Shown: in pieces, positions 3-9,214 of the stretch
Numbering within the stretch: the stretch's first letter is position 1
Layout of the letters: each line of letters opens with the position of its first letter
IMG/VR virus record: IMGVR_UViG_3300031772_000360
Coordinates: 1-20,428 of that record
Length of the DNA stretch: 20,428 nt
Direction: 5' to 3' (one strand)
Source: a virus
Made by a program: the position numbers and the translations under genes
Notes under the pieces: model-generated
What the model was told of the DNA's origin: nothing
The model's input: the letters and a program-made list of their open reading frames with translations, nothing else
Databases searched by the model: none

Positions 3-866
3 GGCGAGCGGTCGACCTGGGAGCCGCGTGCCATCCCCGGCGAGTCGTGGCCGCTCGTCAACCCGCTCGGCATCGTCCCGATCATCCCGCTCGTCAACCG
101 GCCGCGGCTGCGCGGCAACGGCGAGTCGGAGATCGCGGGCGTGATCCCGGTCCAGGACGCGATCAACAAGCTCGCGATGGACATGCTCGTGGCCGCCGAG
201 TACGGCGCGTTCCGCCAGCGGTGGGCGACCGGCGTCGAGATCCCGATGGACCCCGAGACAGGCAAGCCGATCGACACCTATAAGACGAGCATCGACCGCT
301 TCATCTCGACGCCGGTCCCCGACGCGCGGTTCGGCGAGTTCGGCCAGACGGACCTCGCGCCGTACAAACAGGCGATCGAGATGTTCATTCAGCACATCGC
401 CAGCACGACCCGCACCCCGCCGCACTACCTGCTCGGCCAGGCGGGATCGTTCCCGTCGGGCGAGTCGCTCAAGGCGACCGAGACGGGCCTCGTGGCGAAG
501 GCTCACCGCAAGATGCGCCACTTCGGCGAGGCTCACGAGGAAGTCATCCGGCTCGCCTTCCGGGCCATGAACGATCCGCGCGGCGAGATCATCGACTCCG
601 AGGTCATCTGGGCCGATCCCGAGTCGCGGTCCGAGGCCGAGCACACCGACGCGGCGCTCAAGAAGCAGTCGCTCGGCATCCCAAAGGAACAGCTCTGGGA
701 GGATCTCGGCTACACGCCGCAGCAAATCGAGCGGTTCAAGGAGATGCAGTCGGAGGAGGCGCTCGCCACGGCGCCGTTGCCGCCTCCGCCCGAGGCACCG
801 ACCGAGATGACCATCTCGAAGGATGAGATGGGAGTGACGCGGATTGCGCGTGGTCCGTCCCGATGA
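3..866 (+). CDS. Phage portal protein, SPP1 gp6-like (5' end cut by window edge)
   Basis: The reading frame is open from base 3, so the start lies outside the window; the first internal ATG at 141 is not the real start. About 287 residues remain, the C-terminal part of a protein usually 400-500 residues long. The stretch around [17 protein letters not shown], followed by [17 protein letters not shown] and [14 protein letters not shown], matches the core of SPP1 gp6-like portal proteins as I know them. Portals form the dodecameric ring at one capsid vertex through which DNA is packed and to which the tail joins. The C-terminal tail is Pro/Glu-rich ([11 protein letters not shown]), as is common for portals. 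The stop overlaps the next start (ATGA at 863-866). A terminase large subunit gene would be expected just upstream. Confidence 0.9.
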
Positions 867-1748: not shown

Positions 1749-1970
1749 ATGACCGTCTGGTACCGGCAGACCGTGGACGGAGAGGCGGGCGAGCCATGCC
1801 CGATCGAACCGCACGCGCCGGACCAGACGGACGCCGACCTCCTCGCCGCCAAGGCGAAGGGCGCCCACGACAAGGGGTGGACGGTCGGGTGGACGGGCGA
1901 GCGCTCGTTCACCGCCACGAAGGATCGCTGGGGCGGGGTGTCCTGCTTCCGCGAGTTCTGGACTGACTGA
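1749..1970 (+). CDS. Small hypothetical protein (73 aa)
   Basis: I do not recognise a family. The protein is 73 residues, acidic to neutral, and Trp-rich for its size (WYRQ, GWTVGWTG, RWGG, REFWTD), with a central charged helix-like segment (QTDADLLAAKAKGAHDKGW). It starts four bases after the previous stop and has no obvious Shine-Dalgarno. Its stop overlaps the next start by one base (TGATG), so it is probably translated by coupling between two virion-type genes. Short phage proteins beginning with a W-Y-R motif and containing an AKA.G..DKGW segment often sit next to fibre genes, but I cannot assign a role. Confidence 0.6.
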   Translation: MTVWYRQTVDGEAGEPCPIEPHAPDQTDADLLAAKAKGAHDKGWTVGWTGERSFTATKDRWGGVSCFREFWTD

Positions 1971-3745
1971 TGGCAGTCGCCCACGACGTCTCCACCGAGA
2001 GCCACGGCAGTACCACCGGGCACAGCGGCTCCGCGTCGTTCACCTGGAACCATACGGGTGGCGGGTCGGCCCGCGGCGCGCTCGTGTTCGTCTGCGGCGT
2101 CGTCACCGATGCCACCCCGCCCGTCACGTCGGTGACCTACGGCGGCGTGACGATGACCGCCATCCCGTACATCGGCAAGGACACCGACACCGAGCCGGGC
2201 CAGGTCACGGCCTACTACCTCGACGTCTGCGGAACAGGCACCAAGGCCGTCGTCGTCAACCGCTCCGATGCGACGCCGTGGGCGCACATCCTGTACGCGA
2301 CGTGCTCGACGGTCACGGCGGGTTCGGCGACCGAGGTCTATCTGCCGGGCGTCAAGACCTACGGCGGTTCGTCGTCAAACACCGCCGCCAGCACCAGCGG
2401 CACCAGCACCGCGACCACGACGGTCGTCTCGATCACCGACGGCAGTCCCGGCACCAACTCCCTGCGCTTCGCCTGCCGCTACACAGGTGCCGCCTCCCCG
2501 GGTACCGCGGCCACGGGCTCCACCGTTCCGGTCAGCATCGACTTCACGGCCTACGGCATCGCGCTCGCCTACCAGAACACGCCATCGCAGGGCGCGGCCG
2601 ACGTCGGGTTCACCAGCGCGGCCGATGACACGGCGATCGTCGCCCTGGCCGTCCGCGAGATCCCACCGATCCTTGTCCAGCCCGCTGCCGCGGCCGTCAC
2701 GATCGGCACGGCCACGCCGACCGTCGTCGCCCAGAATTGGCCGAGGGTCCAACCCGCCGCCGCGGCCGTCGCGGTTGCAGGTGCAACTCCGGCGGTAGGC
2801 ACCCCGGTCACGATCGCCCCGGCCGCAGCCGCGGTCACCATCGGCACGGCGACACCTACCGTCGTGGCAGGGGCGAACGTCCTCGTCCAGCCTGCGCCCG
2901 CCGCGGTCACCGTCGGCACGGCGACACCGACCGTCGCTTTGCCGCAACTGGCCCAGCCCGCCGCGGCGGCGGTCACCGTCGCCGGAGCGACCCCGGCGGT
3001 GGGCACCCCGGTCAGCATCGCGCCTGCAGCCGCCGCCATCACGATCGGCACCGCGACGCCTGCGCTCGTCGCCCAGAACTGGCCGAAGGCCGCGCCGGCC
3101 GCTGCCTCCGTCTCCGTGGCGGGCGCGACCCCGACGGTGGTCGGGCAGAACTACATCCTGATCCAGCCGTCGTCGGCAGCGGTCGCCGTCGGCGTCGCTA
3201 CCCCTGCGGTGGTGGCCCAGAACTACATCCTCATCCAGCCCGCCGCCGCAGGGGTCACGGTGGGCACCGCAACCGCCGGCATCCTCGCGGTGCAGACGTA
3301 CACGCCCGCCGCCGCAGGGGTCACGGTGGGCATGGCCACCCCGGCGATCGTTGCCCAGAACTACCAGCTGGCCCAGCCCGCCGCCGCGGCGATCGCCGTC
3401 ACGACTGCGACCCCGGCGGTCAGCGCCGCGGCGGCCACGGTCGTCCAGCCCGCGGCCGCGTCTGCCGCCATCGGCGCGGCGACCCCGACCGTCACGGTCA
3501 CCGACAACCGAGTCCTCCAGATGGCCGCCGCCGCGGTCATGTTCGCGGGGATGACGCCGGCGGTGGCGGTCACGACGAATGTCTGGGTCATGCCGGACCC
3601 GGTGGGCATGGTCTTCACCGGCTTGGTTCCGATCATTGCAGGGGCGGAAGAGAAGCGCCGACGCGCAGTCGGTGGCGGTGCCCGGGCGATCGCCTGGGCC
3701 ATCGAAGCCGAAGACGAGGAGATCCTGCTTGCCCTCTACTCCTGA
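1970..3745 (+). CDS. Large Ala/Val/Thr repeat protein, probable virion fibre or surface protein
   Basis: This 591-residue protein has three parts. Residues 1-233 form a non-repetitive, Gly/Ser/Thr-rich, beta-type domain (TSVTYGGVTMTAI, YYLDVCGTGTKAVVV, Ser/Thr-rich linker near 140-155, DDTAIVALAVREI). Residues 234-558 are about 14 tandem imperfect repeats of 22-26 residues with core QPAAAAVTIGTATPTV, often ended by VAQN. The last 33 residues (EEKRRRAVGGGARAIAW...LLALYS) are basic and then acidic. The N-terminal domain resembles, in order of strands and in Gly/Thr pattern, a domain inserted in the tail protein at 17270-18922. A surface fibre or decoration protein is the best guess; the head-gene location favours the capsid. 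Thr-rich repeats could be glycosylation targets for the transferases encoded just downstream, which is untested. It overlaps the next gene by 17 nt if that gene starts at TTG 3729. Confidence 0.75.
   Translation: MAVAHDVSTESHGSTTGHSGSASFTWNHTGGGSARGALVFVCGVVTDATPPVTSVTYGGVTMTAIPYIGKDTDTEPGQVTAYYLDVCGTGTKAVVVNRSDATPWAHILYATCSTVTAGSATEVYLPGVKTYGGSSSNTAASTSGTSTATTTVVSITDGSPGTNSLRFACRYTGAASPGTAATGSTVPVSIDFTAYGIALAYQNTPSQGAADVGFTSAADDTAIVALAVREIPPILVQPAAAAVTIGTATPTVVAQNWPRVQPAAAAVAVAGATPAVGTPVTIAPAAAAVTIGTATPTVVAGANVLVQPAPAAVTVGTATPTVALPQLAQPAAAAVTVAGATPAVGTPVSIAPAAAAITIGTATPALVAQNWPKAAPAAASVSVAGATPTVVGQNYILIQPSSAAVAVGVATPAVVAQNYILIQPAAAGVTVGTATAGILAVQTYTPAAAGVTVGMATPAIVAQNYQLAQPAAAAIAVTTATPAVSAAAATVVQPAAASAAIGAATPTVTVTDNRVLQMAAAAVMFAGMTPAVAVTTNVWVMPDPVGMVFTGLVPIIAGAEEKRRRAVGGGARAIAWAIEAEDEEILLALYS
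2669..3645 (+). repeat. In-gene tandem repeat array, ~14 units of 22-26 codons
   Basis: The units are in codon phase and share the core P-A-A-A-(A/G)-V-x-(I/V)-(G/A)-x-A-T-P-x-V. They diverge mostly at silent or conservative sites. Two adjacent units share 28 identical bases (3239-3266 and 3305-3332), exactly 66 bases or 22 codons apart. Another near-identical pair encodes AQNYILIQP (around 3148 and 3220). The mix of nearly identical and divergent units suggests growth by unequal recombination followed by drift. Unit number could therefore differ between related phages. Confidence 0.85.
3716..3721 (+). promoter_or_regulatory. Shine-Dalgarno GAGGAG that decides a TTG start
   Basis: GAGGAG lies 7 nt upstream of the TTG at 3729, inside the end of the repeat-protein gene. 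No in-frame ATG or GTG in the neighbourhood has an equally well placed site. The in-frame ATG at 3816 has AGGAG directly touching it, which is too close, and would cut off a conserved-looking basic helix. Confidence 0.55.
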
Positions 3746-4361
3746 CGTCCGAGCCGCCCGCTCCGCGGCCGTCTCCCGCGCCTACCGCCTTCGTCTCCGC
3801 GCGATCCGGGAGGAGATGCAGCGTCGGTTGGGCCGCGCCTACGAAGGCGTCGACCAAGCCGACATCCGGGCGACGTTCGCCGCGTTCGTGCCTCCTGCCG
3901 CACGGACGATCACGGCCGCCCAGGCCAGCTCGCAGACGCTCACCCGGGCCTACATCAGAGGCGCGAGCGGCGCCGATCCGGTCCCGGTCGAGAAGCTGGC
4001 CGGAACCTCGGATGCCGGGACGATGACGGCCGCGCTGGTCGGGATCATGCCGATGATCCTGGGCGCGATCGGGCGGGGAACGGCCCCCGACGAGGCCCTG
4101 ACGATGGGCGCCGGCTACGTCACGCGGATGGCCGACAACGAGGTCACCCGCGTCGTCGACGCGGAGATCGAGGCGCAGGTCACGGGCGTCCGCGCCGTGG
4201 GCTGGATCGGGATCGTCAACGCGCCCTGCGACATGTGCACGGGCAACGCCGGCGAGCACACCTTCGACGAGGAGATGGTCCGCCACCCCTGGTGCCAGTG
4301 CGACCGCGAGCTGATCTGGGCAGATTTCGCCTACAGCGTCCCGCAGCTGGCGCCGGCATGA
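3729..4361 (+). CDS. Minor head protein, MuF-like head morphogenesis family
   Basis: With the TTG start the protein is 210 residues. The ATG at 3579 lies deep inside the upstream gene in another frame and gives a low-complexity Arg/Ser/Pro leader, so I reject it. The N-terminal third is a basic helical region (SRAYRLRLRAIREEMQRRLG). The C-terminus has a Cys/His cluster: C167-D-M-C170, then H186-P-W-C189-Q-C191. A CxxC followed by HPxCxC is characteristic of the C-terminal domain of Mu gpF-like minor head proteins, where it probably binds a metal. These proteins sit inside the capsid near the portal and are often encoded right after it; here about 2.9 kb of accessory genes separate the two. 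It shares an ATGA overlap with the methyltransferase gene. Confidence 0.75.
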   Translation: MPSTPDVRAARSAAVSRAYRLRLRAIREEMQRRLGRAYEGVDQADIRATFAAFVPPAARTITAAQASSQTLTRAYIRGASGADPVPVEKLAGTSDAGTMTAALVGIMPMILGAIGRGTAPDEALTMGAGYVTRMADNEVTRVVDAEIEAQVTGVRAVGWIGIVNAPCDMCTGNAGEHTFDEEMVRHPWCQCDRELIWADFAYSVPQLAPA

Positions 4362-4816
4362 AGCTTGAGATCGGCGGGGGGCTGGCGGGCTGGCCGGGCT
4401 TCGTGAACCTCGACCCGGCCCACGGCGAGGGCGAGTTCCGACGCCGGATCCAGGACGGCATCCCGCTCGGGGACGGGACCGTTGAGGAGGCCCGGTGCTC
4501 GCACCTCATGGAGCACATCCCCGCCGGTGCCGAGCGGATCGACGCCTTCAACGAGGTCTGGCGCGTGCTCGTTCCGGGGGGCACGTTCGAGGTGGTCGTG
4601 CCGCTCGTCACGCTTGTCAACCTTGCGATCGGCTGGGGCGCGATCGCCGACCCGACCCACGTCTCGCTCTGGTGTGAGGAGTCGTTTTGGTACTTCACGG
4701 GCAGAGTGGCCGCCGCCGCCGACTATGGCCTCCGGCTCTGGGAGTTGGCCGAGTGGACCACGAAGGACTGGGACTGGGGGACCGAGGGCCGATGCGTCCT
4801 CCGGAAGCCGCGATGA
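4358..4816 (+). CDS. Class I SAM-dependent methyltransferase (short type)
   Basis: This 152-residue protein opens directly with the SAM-binding motif (KLEIGGGLAGWPGFVNLD; Gly-rich loop at 6-8, acidic strand end at D19). It continues with CSHLMEHIPAG, NEVWRVLVPGGTFEVVVP (post-motif III) and DPTHVSLWCEESFWYF. These are hallmarks of small predicted SAM methyltransferases usually found in polysaccharide or glycan clusters. The start at 4358 is chosen because it overlaps the previous stop as ATGA and places the SAM motif at the N-terminus as usual; an upstream in-frame ATG at 4235 would run through the minor head gene. The substrate cannot be read from sequence; a sugar or glycan hydroxyl is plausible next to glycosyltransferases. 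Confidence 0.85.
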   Translation: MKLEIGGGLAGWPGFVNLDPAHGEGEFRRRIQDGIPLGDGTVEEARCSHLMEHIPAGAERIDAFNEVWRVLVPGGTFEVVVPLVTLVNLAIGWGAIADPTHVSLWCEESFWYFTGRVAAAADYGLRLWELAEWTTKDWDWGTEGRCVLRKPR

Positions 4817-5400
4817 TCCTTCCCGACCTCGGATCGCTGGGGGCACTCCACCGGGCCAACAAGCCGACGTCGTACTTCCGGGTCTACGGCGAGGCGCTGG
4901 CGGACCTCAGGAGCCGGCCCGTTTCGCTGCTCGAGCTAGGGATCGCCACCGGCGCGTCGCTTCTCATGTGGCGCGACTACTTCCCGAAGGGGCTCGTCAC
5001 GGGCATCGACTGGGCCGTTCCCGAGCTCGCCGACAGCGCACGCATCGCGATGTACGCGGGTGCCCAGGACGATCTTGCGGTGCTGGACCTGGCCGGGTCG
5101 GAACGCGGCCCGTTCGACGTCATCGTCGACGACTGCGCCCACCTGGGCGCCACGGCCGAGGCGTCCTTCTGGCATCTCTTCTGCCACTATCTTCGCCCGG
5201 GCGGGCTGTACGCGATCGAGGACTGGGGCACGGGGTACTGGCCCGACTGGCCGGACGGCGCCGTCTTCGAGCGCGACCATGCAGCCGGCATGGTGGGCTT
5301 CATCAAGAGTCTCGTCGACGAGTGCGGCCGCGGCGTCTCGGACGTGGACCGCATCGTCCTGGTCCCGGGCCTGGTGCTCGTGACGAAGGGCCCGGCATGA
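4813..5400 (+). CDS. Class I SAM-dependent methyltransferase (CmcI / macrocin O-methyltransferase-like)
   Basis: This 195-residue protein contains SAM motif I LLELGIATGASL (39-50), the acidic residue ending the next strand (GIDW, D66), FDVIVDDCAHLGAT (101-114) and LRPGGLYAIEDWGTGYW (127-143). The paired D-D-x-x-H and E-D-W motifs resemble CmcI-type and macrolide-sugar O-methyltransferases, in which nearby acidic and His residues bind a divalent metal. The likely activity is O-methylation of a sugar or related hydroxyl; the exact substrate is unknown. The start at 4813 gives an ATGA overlap with the upstream methyltransferase. A farther in-frame ATG at 4687 only adds residues that shadow the upstream gene. 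The gene overlaps the double glycosyltransferase downstream, again by ATGA. Confidence 0.85.
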   Translation: MILPDLGSLGALHRANKPTSYFRVYGEALADLRSRPVSLLELGIATGASLLMWRDYFPKGLVTGIDWAVPELADSARIAMYAGAQDDLAVLDLAGSERGPFDVIVDDCAHLGATAEASFWHLFCHYLRPGGLYAIEDWGTGYWPDWPDGAVFERDHAAGMVGFIKSLVDECGRGVSDVDRIVLVPGLVLVTKGPA

Positions 5401-6968
5401 TCCTCGGCTGTCCGGCGTACCAGAACCACCGGCTCACCGCGGCGATGGTCGAGTCGCTCGCGGAGACCGTGACCGGACCGGACTTCACGCTCGTCATCGT
5501 GGACAACGGCTCGCCCCGGCCCTACCGAGCGAAGAGCTTCCGCGTCCCGTTCCGCGTGGAAGTCATTCGCAACGAGCGGAACGAGGGCAACTTCTGGCCG
5601 CTCGCCCAGGTCGCCGGCCTCGACCCGAGGGCCAGCGTTGTCGCCCTCTGCCACAACGACATGCTGTTCTACGAGCGCGGCTGGGATCGCCGCGTCGAGG
5701 ACGCCTTCCGGGACGACCCGCTTCTCGGCATGGTCGGCTTCGCCGGGTCCGACGGGATCGACCGGGACGGGAAGCGGGCCTCGACGATGAGCAACCTCCG
5801 GGGGACCCGTGGGCACATCTCCGCCGAGAAGGCCGGCACCCGGATCACCGACCTCCGGCCGGCGGCCGCCGCCGACGGCCTGTTCATGGCCTTCCGCCAC
5901 GAGGCGCTGGCGTCGCTCACCCTGACCCCGGCCATGCCGCCGGCCCACTTCTACGACTTCATCTGGGGCGCGCAGGTCATCCAGGCGGGCTGGCGCCTGG
6001 GGACGCTCGGGATCGAGTGCGATCACGTCGGCTGGTCGACGGAGGGGCGCCTGGCTGAGGAGCTCGACGGCGAGTGGCGCCGCTGGTGCGCCGAGCAGGG
6101 CATCGACCCCGGGCCCGATCCGATGGCGGCGATCTGGGCCGCCGGCGAGCGGACCTGGCACGACGGCTTCGGCGGCGGGAGGTTCTTTCCCTGCCACGTC
6201 GGTTCGGACTGGATCCGCCGGCCGACGGGGATGGTGGCCGCGGTCTCGATGTTCCGGAACGAGGAGGACGTGGCAGAGCAGGTCATCCGTCACATGCTCG
6301 CCGAGTGCGATCTGGTCGTCGTGGCCGACAACAACTCGACGGACCGCAGCCGCGAGCTCCTCGAGGCGATCGGCGATCCACGGCTCTTCATCTACGACGA
6401 GCCGAGCTTCGCGTACCTCCAGTCCGAGACGATGAACCGCATGGCGGCCGCGGCCGTCGGTGCCGGGGCTGACTGGATCGTCCCGTTTGACTTCGACGAG
6501 TGGTGGTACTCCGACGAGGGCCGGATCGGCGGCGTCCTCCTCGGCCTGCCGCCAGACGTCGTGCTCACGATGACCGACGGCCGCGACATGATCCCCCAGC
6601 CGTCGGACCCCGACGATCCCGACCCCTTCCGGCGCATCACCTGGACGCGGCCCGGCTCGCTCTGGTCGCTGCCCGACACCCGCAAGGTGGCGTACCGCCC
6701 GGGGGCCGACCGCGTGCTGATGCAGGGCAACCACGGGCTCCTGGGCCATCCACGCCCTGAACCGGGCCCGCTCCGCATCCGCCACTACCCCTTCCGCACC
6801 TACGACCAGGCGGCCGCGAAGCTCCGGCACGGCCGGGCGGCCGTCCTGGCGGCCAACGCGCCGGCCAACTCCGGCGGGCACTGGCAGAAGTGGGGCGGCT
6901 ACAGCGACGACGAGCTGCGCGCCTGGTGGGACGAGTGGACGAAGCCGGAAGGGCTGGTGCCGGGATGA
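5397..6968 (+). CDS. Two-domain glycosyltransferase (two GT2-type GT-A domains fused)
   Basis: This protein has 523 residues. Domain 1 (about 1-215) shows LVIVDNGS (32-39), RNEGNFWPLAQ (61-71), ALCHNDMLFYERGWD (83-97; the HND takes the place of a DxD) and WGAQVIQAGWRLGTLG (190-205), typical of rhamnosyl- or galactofuranosyl-type GT2 enzymes. Domain 2 (about 278-470) restarts with AAVSMFRNEEDVAEQVIRHM, VVVADNNSTDRSRE (307-320) and WIVPFDFDEWWYSD (360-373, DFDE metal motif), as in GT2 enzymes of the Glyco_tranf_2_4 kind. Each domain would transfer a sugar from a nucleotide-sugar donor. The start at 5397 overlaps the previous stop (ATGA). A frame open far upstream from 4482 is just a shadow of the methyltransferase genes. 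No membrane segment is seen, so it is probably cytoplasmic. Confidence 0.85.
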   Translation: MILGCPAYQNHRLTAAMVESLAETVTGPDFTLVIVDNGSPRPYRAKSFRVPFRVEVIRNERNEGNFWPLAQVAGLDPRASVVALCHNDMLFYERGWDRRVEDAFRDDPLLGMVGFAGSDGIDRDGKRASTMSNLRGTRGHISAEKAGTRITDLRPAAAADGLFMAFRHEALASLTLTPAMPPAHFYDFIWGAQVIQAGWRLGTLGIECDHVGWSTEGRLAEELDGEWRRWCAEQGIDPGPDPMAAIWAAGERTWHDGFGGGRFFPCHVGSDWIRRPTGMVAAVSMFRNEEDVAEQVIRHMLAECDLVVVADNNSTDRSRELLEAIGDPRLFIYDEPSFAYLQSETMNRMAAAAVGAGADWIVPFDFDEWWYSDEGRIGGVLLGLPPDVVLTMTDGRDMIPQPSDPDDPDPFRRITWTRPGSLWSLPDTRKVAYRPGADRVLMQGNHGLLGHPRPEPGPLRIRHYPFRTYDQAAAKLRHGRAAVLAANAPANSGGHWQKWGGYSDDELRAWWDEWTKPEGLVPG

Positions 6969-7630
6969 CTTACGCCGTCGTCACGCCGTCCCGCGGCACG
7001 ATCCATTCGCGCACCATCGAGGCGGTCATGGCGAACGTCCGCGACGTTCCGGGCTTCCTCGGCTGGACCGTGACGCACGACCTCCCGATCCCGGATTGCC
7101 ACGAGACGGTGACGGAGCAGGCGCTCGCGTCGGGCGCGGGGCTCATCTGGTTCGTCGAGGAGGACGTGATCCCGCCGCCGGACGCACTCCGCGAGTCGCT
7201 CCGCCTGGTGGCCGAAGGCTACGACATGGTCGCGGTGGACTACCCGGTCGGCGCGGCGTCCGATGGCTGGGGCTGCCTCGTTCGCAACGCCGAAGGCGAG
7301 ATCCTCTGGTGCGGGCTGGGCGCGACGCTCATCCGGCGCGAGGTCTTCGAGAAGCTGCCGCAGCCGTGGTTCGCGACTGACACGCGGTACATCAAGCGGG
7401 GAGGTGGAGTCTGGGAACCGGCGCCGCAGGTTCTACCCAATGAGAAACGCTACGGGCAGCAGGACATCTACTTCTGCATGACGCTCCGCGAGGCCGGCTT
7501 CCGCATCGGCCAGGTGCCGGACATGACTGCCAGCCACGCGAAGGTGGAAGCCTACGGCGAGCAGGGGACCAACGTCGGCTTCCACACGATCTCGATCCGC
7601 GACACGATCCTCAAGCAGTACCCCGGATAG
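6965..7630 (+). CDS. Glycosyltransferase-like protein, GT-A fold
   Basis: This 221-residue protein begins with a short strand (TYAVVTPSRG), has IWFVEEDVIPPPDALRESL (61-79), where EED sits in the place of the metal-binding DxD, then CGLGATLIRREVFEKL (116-131) and YGQQDIYFCMTLREAGFRI (163-181). The QQDIYF...AGFRIGQVP segment corresponds to the acceptor-side acidic motif of phage and bacterial GT-A enzymes, and the closing SH (190-191) matches a common metal-site His. The start at 6965 overlaps the previous stop (ATGA); an in-frame ATG at 6890 would lie inside the double glycosyltransferase gene. It is the last gene of the four-gene modification block, followed by 18 nt and the scaffold gene. 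Donor and acceptor sugars are unknown. Confidence 0.75.
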   Translation: MTYAVVTPSRGTIHSRTIEAVMANVRDVPGFLGWTVTHDLPIPDCHETVTEQALASGAGLIWFVEEDVIPPPDALRESLRLVAEGYDMVAVDYPVGAASDGWGCLVRNAEGEILWCGLGATLIRREVFEKLPQPWFATDTRYIKRGGGVWEPAPQVLPNEKRYGQQDIYFCMTLREAGFRIGQVPDMTASHAKVEAYGEQGTNVGFHTISIRDTILKQYPG

Positions 7631-7648: not shown

Positions 7649-8281
7649 GTGACTGACAACGCATCCGCGGGCGCGACGCCCGCCGTGGTCGACGCGACGT
7701 TGGCCCAGACGACCGGCACCGAGCCGGAGGCGCAGGACACCGCGACGGTGGACGTGCCCCTCGGTGACACCGGGAAGCGAGCCCTCGAGGCCGAGCGCAA
7801 GGCAGCGAGCGACGCGCGGCGCCGAGCCGAAGCCGCCGAGAAGGAACTCCAGGCACTCAAGGATGCTGCCCTGTCCGACGGCGAGAAGCGAGACAAGCGC
7901 CTCGCAGAGCTCGAGGCCGAGCGGGCGGTATGGACGCAGGAGCGCGACAACATGATCCTTCGGGCCACCATCGAACGCGAAGCGGCGAAGGCCGGAGCCG
8001 ACCCCGAGCTCGTGCTCGGCACGCTCCTCCTGAACCGCGACTCGATCGAGATGGCCGACGGCGCTCCGACGAACGTGGCCGCGCTTGTGGCGGGGCTGGT
8101 CAAGTCGAAGCCTGGACTCATCACTCGGCCGGTCGGATCGGCCGACCTCGGGACCGGATCGGGCGGCCGGACGGCGGGCAGCCTGACCTTCACTCGCGAG
8201 CAGCTCCGCGACCCGAAGTTCTACGCCGACAACAAACAGGACATCCTCTCCGCGATGGCGGAGGGCCGGATCAGGGGCTAA
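7649..8281 (+). CDS. Capsid scaffolding protein
   Basis: This 210-residue protein starts at GTG with GAAAGG 6 nt upstream (7637-7642). It has an acidic, disordered N-terminus (about 1-40, Ala/Thr/Glu/Pro-rich), a strong heptad-like helical region (about 45-105: ALEAERKAASDARRRAEAAE and onwards) and a C-terminal segment with FTREQLRDPKFYADNKQDIL near 182-201. A predicted coiled coil of this length immediately upstream of the major capsid gene is the signature of phage scaffolding proteins. The FTREQLRD...FYADNK...I motif is frequent at the C-terminus of such proteins, where capsid binding occurs. It should direct procapsid assembly and then leave. No protease domain is visible, so scaffold exit rather than self-cleavage is likely. 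Confidence 0.85.
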   Translation: MTDNASAGATPAVVDATLAQTTGTEPEAQDTATVDVPLGDTGKRALEAERKAASDARRRAEAAEKELQALKDAALSDGEKRDKRLAELEAERAVWTQERDNMILRATIEREAAKAGADPELVLGTLLLNRDSIEMADGAPTNVAALVAGLVKSKPGLITRPVGSADLGTGSGGRTAGSLTFTREQLRDPKFYADNKQDILSAMAEGRIRG

Positions 8282-8302: not shown

Positions 8303-9214
8303 ATGGCTGACACGATCGACATCACTCAGGCGCAGTACTTCATCCCGGAAATCTGGGCCAATCAGGCGCTCGAGATCCTCCGGGCGAACATCGCCGTCGC
8401 ACCTCGCGTCCTGCGCGATACCGACGTGGCGACCTTCGCGCGCGGCGACATCCTCCACATCCCGTACCCCGGCACGCTGGCGGCGACGGCCAAGGCCGCC
8501 GGGACGGAGTACGTCCTCAAGCTCCCGTCGGGCGAGACCGAAGTGCAGGTGCCGCTCGATCAGCACTATGCCGTGAGCTTCGTCGTCGAGGACATCGTCC
8601 GCGCCCAGGCCAATCAGGACGTGATGGCCCGGTACAGCGAGGCCGCCGCAATCGCGCTCGCCGAGAACATCGAAGCGGCGCTCATCACGGAGCTCCAGAC
8701 GAACACTTCCGGCCCCGTCGGCAGCGTCGGCACCGCCCTCACGGCGGCGACGGTCCGCTCCGCATGGAAGGCCATGACGGACAACAAGTGCCCCGCCGAT
8801 CAGCGGTACCTCGTCATCTCGACGAAGGACTGGATCAACCTGCTCGACGACTCGGACCTCGCAAACTTCTTCGCATGGAACCGGACCACGGCGTTCTCCG
8901 CGGCATCGCTCGGCAACCTGTACGGCTTCGAGACGTTCGCCTCGCAGCTCATCACCACGGACTCGGCCACCCCGGCGCACACGCACAACGTCGCCTGGCG
9001 CCGGGACGGCGCCATCCTCGCGATGCGTGGTCTCCCCGAGCCGCCGGCCGGCTCCGGCGCTGTCGCGGCGAACGTCCGCGATCCCGAGTCGGGCCTCGTG
9101 CTCCGCAGCCTCATGGGCTACGACACCCGGCTCGGCGGCGTCCAGGTCACCCTCGAAGTCCTGTACGGCGTGCAGACGCTCCGGGCTGAGAAGGTTCTGC
9201 TCGTCAACAGCTAG
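8303..9214 (+). CDS. Major capsid protein (HK97-fold, P22 coat-like)
   Basis: This 303-residue protein has a strong ribosome binding site (GGAGG at 8288-8292) and follows the scaffold gene by 21 nt. Recognisable parts are the N-terminal IPEIWANQALEILRANI (13-29), the RGDILHIPYPG strand (46-56), the hydrophobic spine-helix region EAAAIALAENIEAALI, the A-domain portion PADQRYLVISTKDWINLLDD and the C-terminal strands (LMGYDTRLGG...TLEVLYGVQTLR). This order fits phage major capsid proteins with the HK97 fold, P22 coat type in particular. There is no long N-terminal delta domain, consistent with the separate scaffold gene. It would form the hexons and pentons of the icosahedral shell. Confidence 0.9.
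   Translation: MADTIDITQAQYFIPEIWANQALEILRANIAVAPRVLRDTDVATFARGDILHIPYPGTLAATAKAAGTEYVLKLPSGETEVQVPLDQHYAVSFVVEDIVRAQANQDVMARYSEAAAIALAENIEAALITELQTNTSGPVGSVGTALTAATVRSAWKAMTDNKCPADQRYLVISTKDWINLLDDSDLANFFAWNRTTAFSAASLGNLYGFETFASQLITTDSATPAHTHNVAWRRDGAILAMRGLPEPPAGSGAVAANVRDPESGLVLRSLMGYDTRLGGVQVTLEVLYGVQTLRAEKVLLVNS

Follow-up and report, generated by a model that had tools for sequence, protein, structure and literature searches.

Glycosyltransferase and methyltransferase genes in a phage head operon

Here, we analyze a 20,428-bp virus fragment from IMG/VR (record IMGVR_UViG_3300031772_000360; the window), a partial contig in which the 5' end of the portal gene is cut by the contig edge, and describe four consecutive genes (4358-7630) for sugar-modifying enzymes that we suggest act on virion proteins. 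The four genes encode two methyltransferases (MT1 and MT2), a fusion of two glycosyltransferase domains (GT1-GT2), and a third glycosyltransferase (GT3). The gene order in the window is portal, collagen-like, two small genes, repeat protein, MuF/head-maturation-type gene, MT1, MT2, GT1-GT2, GT3, scaffold, and major capsid protein (MCP), with connector and tail genes downstream of the MCP gene. The cassette and the genes that flank it are as follows:

4358..4816, + strand: MT1, small class I S-adenosylmethionine (SAM) methyltransferase (phrog_6636, E=2e-7)
4813..5400, + strand: MT2, MycE/TylE-type sugar O-methyltransferase domain (PDB 3ssm, E=1.3e-25; 8ia9, E=1.5e-17)
5397..6233, + strand: GT1, GT-A family 2 domain, N-terminal half of the fused protein (Glycos_transf_2, E=3e-12)
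6231..6968, + strand: GT2, GT-A domain with DxDE motif (Glyco_tranf_2_4, E=1.8e-9)
6965..7630, + strand: GT3, A197-like GT-A glycosyltransferase (profile, Foldseek, EED motif)
3729..4361, + strand: MuF/head-maturation-type minor head protein (phrog_1522 head maturation protease, E=1e-14); start codon uncertain, TTG at 3729 or later
7649..8281, + strand: scaffolding protein (phrog_1793, E=1.6e-5; phrog_4708, E=1.5e-4); GTG start at 7649
8303..9214, + strand: MCP, P22-coat type (phrog_283, E=1e-37; PF11651, E=2.6e-14)

An earlier, sequence-only reading of this DNA had claimed two methyltransferases and three glycosyltransferase domains between head and scaffold genes, and this gene content is confirmed by open reading frames (ORFs), PHROG, Pfam and PDB matches, and a fold model. 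The run of four genes joined by ATGA overlaps, also claimed there, can be read directly in the sequence, i.e., at 4358-4361 (head gene/MT1), 4813-4816 (MT1/MT2), 5397-5400 (MT2/GT1-GT2), and 6965-6968 (GT1-GT2/GT3). Such an overlap at the start of each of the four genes suggests that they are translationally coupled. The GC content at third codon positions is 0.90-0.94 across the four genes, none of which has an internal stop, and we found no stops or composition breaks in the window that would indicate foreign origin or decay of the cassette genes. In relatives, motifs are retained at 60-70% protein identity, and close pairs of relatives have dN/dS ratios of 0.13-0.35, indicative of purifying selection. 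The retention of motifs together with purifying selection argues that the cassette genes are real and that their function is maintained. A search of NCBIfam gave 0 matches.

MT1 matches a PHROG methyltransferase with E=2e-7 and Pfam Methyltransf_11 with E=0.0018, which is under the cut-off. Residues G6, G8, D19, E52, and H53 are invariant in 11 MT1 relatives, in which motif I and an acidic residue are conserved, and relatives with 60-70% identity are found inside glycan cassettes. MT2 matches a PHROG methyltransferase (E=2e-17) and, over its catalytic domain, the mycinamicin sugar O-methyltransferase MycE (3ssm, E=1.3e-25) and the demethylmacrocin O-methyltransferase (8ia9, E=1.5e-17). MT2 residues D107, H110, E136, and D137 correspond to MycE D275, H278, E303, and D304, an equivalence that depends on the 20-residue numbering offset of the crystallised 3ssm chain, and are invariant in the alignment of MT2 relatives. 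Asp275, His278, and Asp304 are active-site residues in MycE (PMC9275233). MT2 is, thus, predicted to O-methylate sugars in the way of such natural-product enzymes. Distant MT2 relatives are present in AT-rich large phages (loci L064-L077), and no neighbourhood was found for them with our MCP and portal queries; therefore, MT2 alone is no virion marker.

Both halves of the fused protein (5397-6968) are GT2-family domains with Pfam matches over the cut-off, i.e., to Glycos_transf_2 (E=3e-12) and to Glyco_tranf_2_4 (E=2e-9). Unlike in the window, GT1 is a gene of its own in L002, L003, and L084, and GT1 and GT2 are two overlapping genes in L002 (8001-9556) and L003. In GT2, the DxDE motif residues D87, D89, and E90 are invariant among 35 relatives. 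GT2 profiles match GmaR (E=1.1e-6) and SunS (E=0.0024), while the GT2 model (pLDDT 95.8) has ThuS, plant GalS1, and SunS as top Foldseek matches in the PDB. These similarities hint that the GT2 acceptor may be a peptide or a protein.

GT3 has a weak match in Pfam (E=0.04), and its model adopts a GT-A fold (pLDDT 94.4). The best structural match is A197 of the archaeal virus STIV (PDB 2c0n; Foldseek E=1e-9, 21% identity, TM 0.60-0.69), which is also detected in a profile comparison (HMM E=7.5e-8). The EED motif of GT3 (E65-E66-D67) and D167 are invariant in 40 relatives, and the EED motif is in register with the DED motif of A197. Among more distant fold matches are the collagen glycosyltransferases ColGalT1 and LH3. 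GT3 corresponds to phrog_1574, a PHROG of unknown function. A pattern-based scan of 84,980 bacterial and archaeal species genomes, which may miss distant relatives, returned 1 GT3 relative, on a Shapirobacteria metagenome contig. Among cultured phage records, one match was obtained for P0003, whereas P0004 and L028 each had a single GT3-family match, both of these being metagenomic Manatee Spring genomes; three other GT3 queries gave no match in these records. Thus, the GT3 family, on which little work has been published, is apparently virus-specific, with hardly any member in bacterial genomes or in cultured phages.

Linkage of GT3 to capsid and tail-tube genes

A scan with the GT3 alignment identified 51 viral loci, and a search of 50 records with phrog_283 (MCP) gave a match in 38. 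Together with the window, this makes 39 records with a P22-type MCP; in every one of them, GT3 lies ≤1,078 bp from the MCP gene (median 140 bp), and in 37 of the 39 it lies downstream of that gene. These loci span GC contents of 35% to 72%, and their MCPs are 22% to 61% identical to the window MCP. An HK97-type MCP (PF05065, phrog_10) is present in three more records, the cassette genes of which are 47-67% identical to those of the window; here, the cassette is within ∼6 kb of the MCP gene, and two of the records (L002 and L003) hold all cassette genes. In L033, L041, and L043, GT3 immediately follows a Phage_tube_2 tail-tube gene (E=3e-13 to 2e-8), homologues of which are directly ahead of GT3 in L046 and L050. 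GT3 is present twice in L043 and in the record containing L045 and L050, with one copy among the head genes and the other following the tail-tube gene. The own annotation of two deposited phage genomes reads scaffold, MCP, small gene, and glycosyltransferase. GT3, thus, nearly always neighbours the gene for the MCP or for the tail-tube protein, which are the proteins present in the highest amounts in a virion. A portal or MCP gene could be recognised in 44 of 80 GT2-family loci, each time on the same strand. A Fisher test gave P=5e-17, a value that we do not take as proof since the test counts related records as if they were independent.

Two other types of gene are found next to the MCP gene. 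A small gene of 71-100 aa is often located between the MCP gene and GT3 (L056:8899-9114, L057:4541-4777, L155:2065-2367, and L156:5699-6001). Directly after HK97-type MCP genes, there is a large ORF (∼400-500 aa) in which a GT3-like domain is weakly matched (E 1e-8 to 1e-14), e.g., L219:5307-6791, with similar ORFs in L166, L171, L173, L177-L179, L198, L202, L209, L220, L224, and L234; these ORFs possibly encode capsid-linked glycosyltransferases of another class, larger than GT3.

The composition and position of the cassette vary among relatives. In L005, which has a related backbone, the cassette follows the MCP gene in the order GT3, MT1, Methyltransf_24 enzyme, GT2, and TOD1/MUCI70-like glycosyltransferase. 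In L017, two other glycosyltransferase-type genes (one Pfam-confirmed, one by eye) occupy the gap between head and scaffold genes and GT3 follows the MCP gene, and L013 and L084 have a partial cassette between portal and scaffold. L057, L055, and L041 carry additional nucleotide-sugar genes, i.e., for UDP-glucose/GDP-mannose dehydrogenase and DegT aminotransferase (Pfam) and an epimerase-like protein (by eye). Judged by eye alone, GT3 is the sole sugar gene within the region read of several GT3-positive loci (e.g., L021, L023, and L025). In a tree of 68 MCPs, 30 with GT3 and 32 without, at least 8 changes are needed to explain its distribution, 5 of which are forced by well-supported branches, and GT3 occupies the same slot. 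The closest cultured MCPs are those of Corynebacterium and Gordonia phages (29-32% identity over half of the protein), which only hints at a possible actinobacterial host.

Some observations concern the surroundings of GT3 in individual relatives. A large sugar island in L055 (345-5470), comprising GT3, several glycosyltransferases, a GT-B/methyltransferase fusion, and a DegT aminotransferase, abuts the scaffold gene. In several distant phages, a distinct small methyltransferase-like gene is located right after GT3 (L054:10644-11099, L047:1405-1902, and L090 ∼6498-7151); pairs of GT3 and a methyltransferase, thus, recur with different methyltransferase families. Two minus-strand ORFs of AHREE/YAAHR-like repeats are present within the late operon of L019 (11563-12384 and 13191-13805).

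Proposed function and alternative explanations

We observe enzyme genes with conserved motifs and modelled folds, purifying selection on them in relatives, and linkage to MCP and tail-tube genes. A coupled cytoplasmic cassette that is found repeatedly beside capsid and tail-tube genes and is nearly absent from cells and cultured phages is best explained as serving virion glycosylation. We, therefore, consider it probable that the four genes form a cassette for glycosylation and O-methylation of the virion, mainly of the MCP, and that they are expressed with the late head genes. The suggestion in the sequence-only reading that the enzymes act on the virion during assembly and add O-methylated glycans is, thus, indirectly supported along several independent lines, namely the MCP/tail-tube linkage, the MycE-type MT2 with its catalytic residues, A197 as the nearest match of GT3, the rarity of GT3 in bacteria, and the layout of the Corndog and Firecracker genomes described below. 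In a broader proposal, to which we give even chances, GT3 defines an apparently virus-specific, A197-related family of protein glycosyltransferases that modify the MCP or tail-tube protein encoded next to them, such that the neighbouring gene would reveal the substrate and GT3 would serve as a marker of virion glycosylation in many tailed phages that have not been cultivated.

The acceptor, the sugars and their donors, the linkage residue, the order of the enzymes, and the benefit we infer from this setting. We suggest that soluble GT-A enzymes would load host nucleotide sugars in the cytoplasm onto a high-copy virion protein in the form of a short glycan, and that the acceptor would most likely be the MCP encoded directly downstream. 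GT3 may initiate the glycan on the capsid protein; we assign it this role because, by inspection, we recognised no further sugar gene in the region read of several GT3-positive loci. It is also the one enzyme retained beside the MCP gene in many phages. GT2 and GT1 could then lengthen the glycan or start other sites. Subsequently, MT2 would methylate a ring hydroxyl in the manner of MycE, i.e., involving SAM, Mg2+, and neighbouring hydroxyls, and MT1 would add a second methyl group or cap the chain. The modification might shield the particle, increase its stability, or help it evade surface recognition.

Several points weigh against virion glycosylation by the cassette. The linkage amounts to guilt by association, in records that are related by descent and, therefore, not independent of each other. 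The 32 MCP relatives that appear to be without GT3 imply that the modification is dispensable. In L078, which has the nearest MCP relative (73%), the cassette is missing from the interval that separates portal and scaffold; the contig ends just past the MCP gene and, thus, short of the downstream slot. The C-terminus of the window MCP has no Ser/Thr-rich tail obvious by eye. Finally, there is no cultured relative close to the window.

Phage glycosyltransferases often alter glycans of the host envelope and in that way block adsorption by other phages (surface conversion or superinfection exclusion), and this function has been proposed for a glycosyltransferase of gut phages whose gene is upstream of a kinase gene, the latter being flanked by the portal and MCP genes (PMC8008677). 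However, the cassette consists of GT2-family glycosyltransferases and methyltransferases, and the hallmarks of Gtr-like lysogenic seroconversion, i.e., a flippase and a lipid-carrier (bactoprenol-linked) transferase, were not found in it. Moreover, GT1-GT2, GT3, and MT2 are devoid of transmembrane segments, and the one hydrophobic stretch of MT1 is probably a core strand. The single relative among the 84,980 genomes argues that GT3 is no typical prophage conversion gene, and neither the placement in the late head module nor the close proximity of GT3 to MCP or tail-tube genes across unrelated backbones fits a host-directed function. We, therefore, regard host-surface conversion as unlikely. 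Even less probable is that the glycosyltransferases decorate a modified DNA base. Such hypermodification is known for many phages, and base-modification genes may lie beyond the ends of this partial contig; however, no base-modification gene was recognised in the window, the nearest structures are A197, SunS/ThuS, and GmaR, MT2 is of the natural-product sugar O-methyltransferase type, and DNA modification leaves the adjacency to MCP and tail-tube genes unexplained. Of all alternatives, we consider this one the least probable.

The cassette could also modify a virion protein other than the capsid protein, i.e., the collagen-like protein, the repeat protein, or tail fibres, and the sequence-only reading had raised such a fibre or collagen-like target. 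Two of the genes in question lie, together with the portal gene, upstream of the cassette:

3..866, + strand: portal protein, 5' end cut (phrog_104, E=2.5e-78)
863-1288: collagen-like protein, between portal and head-maturation gene
1970-3745: repeat protein, 591 aa, with PAAAAVTVGTATPTV-type repeats

The location between portal and head-maturation gene is unusual for both collagen-like and repeat proteins, and the N-terminal part of the latter is similar to the minor tail protein phrog_2106. Both genes share the operon with the cassette, and ColGalT1 and LH3, as mentioned, are among the distant fold matches of GT3. However, a collagen-like run is present in only 2 of 52 GT3-positive loci (the window and L054), and a link of the cassette to collagen-like genes was, therefore, rejected. 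Moreover, L005, L013, and L017 have cassette genes together with a similar portal, scaffold, and MCP but no collagen-like run, and GT3 is linked instead to MCP or tail-tube genes. Thus, we judge these targets improbable, falling between host-surface conversion and DNA modification, and favor the MCP as the main acceptor.

Comparison with known systems

The individual enzymes resemble known proteins but also differ from them. STIV A197 is the nearest match of GT3 in fold and profile and comes from a virus with a glycosylated coat protein, for which A197, an essential protein, is the candidate enzyme according to reviews (PMC4187194, PMC10551542). However, STIV is an archaeal tailless virus, the acceptor of A197 is itself putative, and the structural overlap with GT3 is moderate. 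MT2 keeps equivalents of the active-site Asp/His/Asp of the MycE/TylE macrolide sugar O-methyltransferases but consists of the catalytic domain alone, whereas the chain of MycE (419 residues) additionally has a large N-terminal region. For GT2, the nearest profile matches are the flagellin glycosyltransferase GmaR and the peptide S-glycosyltransferases SunS/ThuS, with SunS/ThuS also among the top fold matches; however, the match is mainly over the nucleotide-sugar domain, and acceptor specificity is not transferable by similarity.

Virion glycosylation in tailed phages is documented mainly in mycobacteriophages in the literature cited here. Glycosylated virion proteins are reported in Che8, Corndog, and Myrna, and Che8 gp110 and Corndog gp38 are called essential for capsid glycosylation, in PMC12363180, which cites Freeman et al. 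2023. Corndog-type (cluster O) phages have an O-methyltransferase and three glycosyltransferase-type genes between portal and protease, which are seen in infected cells and suspected of capsid modification (PMC4351075). Because cluster O phages have such a placement, the premise of the sequence-only reading that glycosyltransferases in a head operon are unusual is only partly right. Like Corndog gp35-38 and Firecracker gp33-36, with one O-methyltransferase and three glycosyltransferase-type genes in the head module upstream of the MCP gene, the window combines phage glycosyltransferases and O-methyltransferase with a head-module location. By contrast, it has two methyltransferases (one MycE-type), a fused GT1-GT2, and an A197-like GT3 that is missing in theirs. 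Che8 (cluster F1) gp108-110 resemble the cassette in glycosyltransferase and O-methyltransferase content, and the window MCP belongs to the same family as that of Che8 (33% identical over 132 aa, E=5.5e-11), the capsid and tail-tube proteins of which are reported as glycosylated in papers including PMC12363180. However, the Che8 glycosylation genes are located at the far right genome end, outside the head operon, and the glycosyltransferase sequences have no convincing match. In a homology test with Che8 gp108-110 and Firecracker gp33-36 (in place of Corndog gp35-38), no match was better than E ∼0.001 by blastp or profile, and orthology to the Che8/Corndog-type enzymes was not found. Lacking detectable homology to the Che8 and Firecracker enzymes, the cassette would represent a similarly working but separate enzyme set.

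Altogether, these data suggest that virion glycosylation occurs widely among phages that have not been cultivated, across several capsid types, that it evolved with differing enzyme sets, and that it may be readable from genome order in that an A197-like glycosyltransferase gene adjoins the gene of its likely substrate. This proposal would give a function to phrog_1574 and would predict, for each phage, which protein is modified; the reason for glycosylated and methylated phage shells, moreover, becomes testable through loss of a single small gene. Sugar-coating of capsids is known in a few laboratory phages, where it is carried out by unrelated enzymes.

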